Positions 46,955-48,639 of a stretch of DNA of 50,630 nt are shown here, one piece after another. Within the stretch, counting starts at the first letter, position 1. Every line of letters starts with the position of its first letter. The translations under genes and the position numbers were made by a program. This stretch comes from an uncultured Ignavibacteriales bacterium (GTDB taxonomy: Bacteria; Bacteroidota; Ignavibacteria; Ignavibacteriales; Melioribacteraceae): positions 1 through 50,630 of the forward strand of contig CAMZLW010000075.1 of assembly GCA_947311785.1 (NCBI GenBank), written 5' to 3'. The notes beneath the pieces are model-generated. The model was not told where the DNA came from and did not search any database. It worked only from the letters and a program-made list of their open reading frames with translations.

Positions 46955-47047
46955 TTATACTTTCTTTTTATGTCTATTTTTTCTCAATCTTTTCTTTCTC
47001 TTATGAGTTGCCATTTTATGACGTTTTCTTTTCTTTCCACTAGGCAT
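46955..47047 (-). CDS. 30-residue basic protein, AURKAIP1/COX24 (mS38-like) family
   Basis: A small gene encodes MPSGKKRKRHKMATHKRKKR and ten more residues (ending KKKV), with a strong AAAGGAG site eight bases before the ATG. More than half the residues are Lys or Arg. Proteins of this kind, with KRKRHKMATHKRKKRLRKNRHKKK-like sequence, are widespread in FCB bacteria and annotated as AURKAIP1/COX24-domain proteins. The family includes mitochondrial ribosomal protein mS38, so a ribosomal small-subunit role is likely but inferred. It sits 13 bp after the TPR gene and before the terminator. Confidence 0.85.
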   Translation of the reverse strand: MPSGKKRKRHKMATHKRKKRLRKNRHKKKV

Positions 47048-47657: not shown

Positions 47658-47960
47658 TTACGAGTTACTCTCTTTCAATTTCATTCCTTTATCAACAGCA
47701 CTTTTGAAGTCTTTTGAAAATTTAAATGTTGGAACATAATGTTCATCTACAAAAACTTTTTCACCAGTTCTTGGATTTCTTGCATATCTCGAATTTTTCT
47801 TTTTTACTCTGTAACTACCAAATCCTCTAATTTCAATTCCATTTCCGTCACGTAACGATTGAATTACTGTATTGAGGAATCCTTCTACAATTGCTTCTGT
47901 TTCTAGCTTTGTTAATCCAGTACCATCAGCCACTCTTTCCACGATATCAGCTTTGGTCAT
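47658..47960 (-). CDS. HU/IHF-family DNA-binding protein
   Basis: The 100-residue protein has the HU/IHF fold: MTKADIVERVADGTGLTKLETEAIV, then the beta-arm with GFGSYRVKKKNSRYARNPRTGE. The RNPRTGE segment includes the proline that intercalates into bent DNA. A nucleoid-shaping role is expected. It heads a three-gene operon with the TPR and COX24-like genes, and has AAGGA seven bases before the ATG. Confidence 0.93.
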   Translation of the reverse strand: MTKADIVERVADGTGLTKLETEAIVEGFLNTVIQSLRDGNGIEIRGFGSYRVKKKNSRYARNPRTGEKVFVDEHYVPTFKFSKDFKSAVDKGMKLKESNS

Positions 47961-48122: not shown

Positions 48123-48142
48123 AGTGTGATAAAAATCACAGT
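48123..48142. promoter_or_regulatory. CRP-like operator upstream of the basic membrane protein gene
   Basis: AGTGTGATAAAAATCACAGT contains TGTGA-N6-TCACA, the exact E. coli CRP consensus half-sites at exact spacing. Its centre (between 48132 and 48133) lies about 61.5 bases before the predicted start (about 48194) of the promoter at 48159-48187, the classical class I activator distance. The cognate regulator is not in the window. Confidence 0.55.
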
Positions 48143-48158
48143 AATGAAAAAAAATGAT

Positions 48159-48187
48159 TTGAAAGAATTAAACAATAGTCATATATT
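48159..48187 (+). promoter_or_regulatory. Sigma70-like promoter of the basic membrane protein gene
   Basis: TTGAAA (48159-48164) and TATATT (48182-48187) are separated by 17 bases. The predicted start near 48194 lies about 20 bases before the ATG at 48214. Confidence 0.6.
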
Positions 48188-48213
48188 GGGTGCTTAATTA
48201 AAAAAGCAAATTG

Positions 48214-48639
48214 ATGGAATTATTACCTATAATATATTGGAGTTTATTAGGTGCTGGCGTTTTAGCTATAGTGGTAATAGTTATTTCTTTTATTACTTTT
48301 CAGTTTAAGAAGAAGTATGGTCTTATCCCTTCTGAAGAAGTAGTTGGAAAAGAGAGGAATAAAAAAGTACGAGTTACAAATCCTGATAAAAAGAAAAAAA
48401 CCGAAAAAAAACATCATCCAAAAGTTAAAACTCGTTCACGACAAAACAAAGATGTTAGGGCAAGCAAAGAAAAAAAAGTACAAACTTCAGATAGTGCCCT
48501 TTATAAAAGACCAACTCGCGATTCTAAAAGGAAAAGGATTGAAATAGTAAACCCAATAGACAACGATATTGATGCCACCCAAAGTAGCACTAAGTATAGA
48601 CCATTAAAAGTTAGTTCCAAACGCAACGATTGGAACTAA
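48214..48639 (+). CDS. Short single-pass membrane protein with a basic tail, unknown function
   Basis: The frame can open at TTG 48211, but ATG is the next codon; I use 48214 (141 aa). A membrane helix (about 4-29) is followed by a long, very basic, probably disordered tail (KKKKTEKKHHPKVKTRSRQNK and later SKRKRIEIV). No family is recognised. The tail could bind nucleic acid or acidic polymer at the inner face of the membrane. The stop codon lies inside a terminator stem. A CRP-like dyad and a good promoter precede it. Confidence 0.65.
   Translation: MELLPIIYWSLLGAGVLAIVVIVISFITFQFKKKYGLIPSEEVVGKERNKKVRVTNPDKKKKTEKKHHPKVKTRSRQNKDVRASKEKKVQTSDSALYKRPTRDSKRKRIEIVNPIDNDIDATQSSTKYRPLKVSSKRNDWN

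Follow-up and report, generated by a model that had tools for sequence, protein, structure and literature searches.

The dyad and the predicted promoter of the 48214 gene

The window, a stretch of 50,630 bases from a genome of the Melioribacteraceae (Ignavibacteriales), contains a gene starting at 48214 that is divergent from a gene for an HU-type DNA-binding protein and is followed by an M3 peptidase gene. A scan of named genomes gave two relatives of the peptidase, 82 and 78% identical, from MAGs of the Ignavibacteriales and the Melioribacteraceae. The 48214 gene codes for a small membrane protein. For the 48214 protein we found no family above the curated cut-off, and since every profile match was sub-threshold, including a weak one to DUF4834, no family name was retained. 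The intergenic region shared by HU and the 48214 gene has conserved blocks next to each of the two genes, and it holds the following features.

47658..47960, minus strand: divergent HU-type DNA-binding protein gene (PF00216, E 1.3e-28), whose start lies 164 bases from the dyad
48125..48140, no strand: CRP-type dyad TGTGATAAAAATCACA, the sole exact match in the window
48158..48161, plus strand: TTTG, -33 element of a Bacteroidota-type promoter; TTTG-N20-TATATTTG aligns at the equivalent place in three congeners
48182..48189, plus strand: TATATTGG, -7 box (TAnnTTTG with one mismatch, -12 to -5), by sequence match, with the box position from PMC9723704
48194, plus strand: predicted transcription start, placed from the box position
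48214..48639, plus strand: gene encoding a basic 141-aa protein whose single hydrophobic stretch is N-terminal (sequence reading and family searches)

Elsewhere in the window a very basic ORF of 30 residues (MPSGKKRKRHKMATHKRKKRLRKNRHKKKV; 46955-47047, minus strand) was seen by eye between a tRNA-like stretch and a TPR gene. It looks like a small ribosomal-type protein and falls below the usual ORF cut-offs.

The first-pass annotation had described an exact CRP-consensus site, TGTGA-N6-TCACA, in front of the 48214 gene, and this observation is confirmed. TGTGATAAAAATCACA matches both half-sites and the 6-base spacer (10/10), is centred at 48132.5 and occurs once in the window, where dinucleotide shuffles lead one to expect 0.04; at least one exact match appeared in 4 of 100 such shuffles.

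Downstream of the dyad TTGAAA (48159-48164), N17 and TATATT (48182-48187) form the top promoter-like match between 47900 and 48800, with 10/12 positions. The same stretch can be read as TTTG (48158-48161)-N20-TATATTGG (48182-48189), one mismatch away from the Bacteroidota pattern TTTG-N20-TAnnTTTG and overlapping the TTGAAA and TATATT bases. Because the host belongs to the Melioribacteraceae, the Bacteroidota pattern is the proper yardstick for its promoters, and the window promoter is better read as Bacteroidota-type than as E. coli-type. The good promoter reported earlier thus stands as the best match and as a conserved element, but not as one of E. coli type.

Work on Flavobacterium psychrophilum puts TAnnTTTG, the sigma-A box, at -12 to -5 and gives a median leader of 24 nt (PMC9723704). 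With 48182 taken as -12 the predicted start falls at 48194, giving the 48214 gene (ATG at 48214) a predicted leader of 20 nt and placing the centre of the dyad at -61.5. This spacing, which had also been claimed before, holds under the E. coli-type and Bacteroidota-type promoter models alike. Class I CRP layouts of the E. coli lac type have a dyad centred at -61.5. The predicted start therefore puts the window dyad at a class I position, for which the centre is expected near -61.5 or whole turns further away.

Conservation and distribution of the motif

Relatives of the 48214 protein were found in 18 of the 58 genomes searched, the window's own included. Three congeners, G001, G002 and G004, have the gene, and there the promoter TTTG-N20-TATATTTG lies 56-59 bases before the gene start, as it does in the window. 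The dyad is absent from all three, the best matches there being 7, 7 and 6 of 10. In the full set of 19 upstream stretches besides the window's own, which come from 17 genomes, two of them with two copies, and include one stretch of only 60 bases, we found no exact dyad. A single stretch, L011 from another genus, holds a 9-of-10 dyad; its chance under mononucleotide shuffling is 0.003 for L011 alone, which is weak given that 19 stretches were examined. A dyad missing where gene and promoter persist is what the first-pass annotation had named as a refuting outcome, and the three congeners show just that. Such conservation before orthologues supports an operator and does not define one. It seems that the window dyad was either gained recently or survives as a remnant in its own lineage alone.

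The behaviour of the motif across the genus is different from that of a control, the reversed pattern, which is likewise an inverted repeat of equal composition. Exact TGTGA-N6-TCACA sites number 8, 7, 5, 8 and 3 in the five genus genomes (31 in all), as against 1, 3, 2, 2 and 1 for the control (9); the window's own genome has 8 against 1. With genes called as mechanical ORFs, so that coding and non-coding labels are approximate, 23/31 sites and 0/9 controls are non-coding when ORFs of at least 60 aa are counted (19/27 sites without the repeated dnaA dyad described below, Fisher 0.0003), and 24/31 and 1/9 when ORFs of at least 100 aa are counted (20/27, Fisher 0.0015). This excess together with the mostly intergenic placement, unlike that of the control, suggests that the motif serves as an operator in the genus. 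Across 38 genomes of the family, two of them from the genus, hand sums gave 121 exact sites against 52 for the control. Subtracting the 15 sites of G000 and G002 leaves 106 in other genera, of which we read 68, picked by tool or from a printed list and hence not at random; setting aside the dnaA dyad leaves 61 of these, 36 of them non-coding.

The non-coding sites also share a spacer preference, which extends the consensus to TGTGATTTAAATCACA. Scored against this extended consensus, the spacer of the window dyad ranks at the 54th percentile among 54 other non-coding sites. Spacers scoring as high were found at 2 of 33 coding sites and in about 9% of random AT-rich spacers.

Five of the eight exact sites in the window's own genome are intergenic and three lie inside coding sequence. 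Two of the intergenic sites are the window site, before the 48214 gene, and the one before dnaA. The other three are L029:182-197, before a small membrane-protein pair, L030:431-446, before an MlaE-type permease gene, and L031:3230-3245, before a small lipoprotein-like gene that stands behind pgk. By eye the membrane-protein pair is GldL/GldM-like, and its single NCBIfam match is a sub-threshold one to SLATT.

Two further groups of dyads were noted. Exact dyads lie inside multihaem cytochrome-type genes (CxxCH repeats) at L032, L043, L062, L162 and L174, with spacers unlike those of intergenic sites, and are probably codon-driven chance matches. In four of the five genus genomes a 16-base dyad, TGTGAAACGTTTCACA, lies in the gap between dnaA and its divergent neighbour, with an identical spacer each time (L027:1981-1996, i.e. 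G000:C17:1981-1996, in the window's own). It also lies near dnaA in further genera, and was recorded at L039, L041, L060, L113, L125, L128, L134, L136 and L177. Its halves resemble parS halves in swapped order. It may have nothing to do with CRP and belong instead to the origin or to the control of dnaA.

A second promoter in the genus keeps a spacing near -61.5. Exact dyads lie at -61.5, -62.5 and -60.5 from a similar promoter of an MBL-fold/RNase Z-like gene in G003, G002 and G001, and a 9-of-10 dyad precedes the same promoter block in G004, so that the arrangement is kept in all four congeners that have the gene (L080, L081, L082 and L083). The gene itself was not found in the window's own genome. 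Among 30 MBL-type loci, two of which gave no start and were left unscored, none outside the genus had an exact dyad and one stretch from another genus (L086) had a 9-of-10 match. In NCBIfam the MBL-fold protein matches RNase Z with 85 bits, and its match to a cyclic nucleotide-degrading phosphodiesterase is weak (51 bits, cut-off 400); a cAMP feedback loop through this gene is conceivable.

We found no preference for -61.5 across the family. When promoter scores were averaged over 65 site-gene pairs, the offset -61.5 came 28th of 120, so a class I distance is not a general rule here. The columns downstream of the dyads gave no clear signal. A rise in score at -24.5 to -30.5 was set aside as at least partly an artefact, since the TGTG of the dyad itself scores as a -33 element.

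A candidate regulator and known CRP-type systems

Two proteins of the window's own genome exceed the HTH_Crp_2 cut-off. One, encoded beside a GAPDH gene (G000:C142:19919-20599), is a GlxR/CRP-type regulator with the recognition helix SRETISR; the other, C107, has the helix SRQTVNSIL. The C142 regulator has a match of at least 61% identity in 37 of 39 genomes searched, its own included, with 86-89% in three congeners and only weak matches in G003 and G016. It aligns with Crp/Fnr-family chains of solved structure at E ~2e-34, and its recognition helix shares SRET with theirs. We take the top chains to be GlxR of Corynebacterium glutamicum and CRP-Mt of Mycobacterium tuberculosis. The GE...RS motif of a cyclic-nucleotide pocket is present in all 12 distinct orthologues read, and the genome also encodes a class III nucleotide cyclase. 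The search for a cognate regulator, which the first-pass annotation had proposed, has thus yielded a conserved candidate at the level of genes.

Orthologues of the C142 regulator gene have an exact dyad immediately ahead of them in six other genera (G006, G009, G017, G026, G030 and G033; dyads L120, L131, L151, L161, L169 and L170), and in G011 a 9-of-10 dyad has this position. In each of the six a GAPDH gene runs the other way from the same region, which leaves both the regulator gene and GAPDH as possible targets. Judged from this placement, autoregulation is likely in the six genera. In the window's own genome no clear dyad precedes the regulator gene, the best match being 6 of 10, and autoregulation was not found in the window's own genus.

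GlxR and CRP-Mt are tabulated as binding TGTGA-N6-TCACA-like sites in the available part of a review (PMC5449483). The host of the window belongs to another phylum and has a Bacteroidota-type promoter. The window resembles the class I promoters of E. coli CRP (lac type, -61.5) in the sequence of its dyad and in its centre at -61.5, but differs from them in its promoter, TTTG-N20-TATATTGG rather than TTGACA/TATAAT, and in that the site is not conserved with the gene. Closer to the host, within the same broad group, Bacteroides Crp (BT4338) is a Crp-family regulator with a predicted autoregulatory palindrome, and the motif TATGTTnTAnAACATA given for it in the part of the paper available differs from TGTGA-N6-TCACA (PMC3878776). 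In the host's own class, CRP/FNR homologues of Ignavibacteria MAGs have been called MalR- or Flp-like and their regulon predicted in silico; according to the portion of that paper at hand, Ignavibacteria were searched with the Bacteroides MalR matrix, and the term TGTGA is absent from its main text (PMC8510549). E. coli-like CRP sites have been predicted before dehalogenase genes of marine dehalogenators, Melioribacteraceae bins among them (PMC12090745, as far as its accessible text goes). In the partly accessible open-licence literature we found no paper on an Ignavibacteria or Melioribacter CRP-type regulon as such.

A possible class I operator and its alternatives

All in all, we read the dyad as most likely a true CRP-type operator that is specific to its lineage, and class I activation as its likeliest mode. 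The dyad would be bound by the C142 regulator, whose ligand is most likely cAMP or a nucleotide like it. From -61.5, upstream of the Bacteroidota-type promoter, the regulator would reach the C-terminal domain of the RNA polymerase alpha subunit and thereby increase transcription of the 48214 gene. We hold this complete reading, with a lineage-specific site, to be somewhat more probable than its negation. It builds on the sequence, on the predicted promoter and its conservation, on the genus-wide intergenic enrichment and on the regulator and cyclase genes; binding at the dyad, cAMP as the ligand and the activating effect are what we infer from these. The class I activator site of the first-pass annotation therefore survives as a credible operator with a fitting phase and spacer, an enriched motif, a conserved promoter and an encoded regulator and cyclase, and is weakened by the missing dyad in congeners and related stretches and by the lack of a family-wide -61.5 preference.

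The dyad could instead be a neutral palindrome that arose by chance in an AT-rich intergenic stretch, its phase at -61.5 being a coincidence. We consider this unlikely, though far from negligible. The window shuffle rate scaled to 2.85 Mb predicts about two exact sites per genome, three of the eight own-genome sites do lie in coding sequence, and -61.5 is no general rule; the three congeners keep gene and promoter without the dyad, and none of the 19 related stretches has it exactly. Against chance stand the genus-wide excess over the control, the intergenic placement and a spacer that is typical of the non-coding set and matched by only two coding sites.

Somewhat less probable still is that the dyad is the operator of another Crp/Fnr-family protein, such as C107, or works by a route other than class I, be it repression or assistance to another factor. 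A second Crp-type protein is encoded, outside the genus the dyads just ahead of regulator genes point to repression of some promoters, and the absence of a general -61.5 rule would fit here too. The SRET helix that the C142 protein has in common with its top structural matches, and the six orthologues with a dyad before their own gene, speak for C142 instead, and a site at -61.5 leaves the promoter uncovered. The dyad does lie inside the region shared with HU, yet a role as the HU operator, or as a hairpin or terminator, is very improbable. A distance of 164 bases is beyond the usual CRP activating positions, and the HU reading was rejected as too distant; the conserved blocks adjoin the two genes, and the hairpin reading was dropped as no terminator-like site was found.

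With class I activation by the C142 regulator as the preferred reading, a wider scheme can be drawn, although we regard it as speculative and improbable as a whole. A GlxR-type cyclic-nucleotide regulon of the Melioribacteraceae would use the operator TGTGATTTAAATCACA with Bacteroidota-type promoters, with autoregulation in several genera. Within the window's genus it would activate, from about -61.5, an MBL-fold gene that perhaps degrades cyclic nucleotides, closing a feedback loop. The 48214 gene, beside HU, would have joined the regulon only lately.

By itself the window site is an ordinary switch of a known sort. If the preferred reading is true, it would add one more promoter to a CRP-type regulon of the Ignavibacteria and would be a case of operator turnover between congeners. 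The wider result outweighs the site: for a group in which predictions of CRP/FNR regulons have used Bacteroides matrices, it supplies a motif and a likely regulator.
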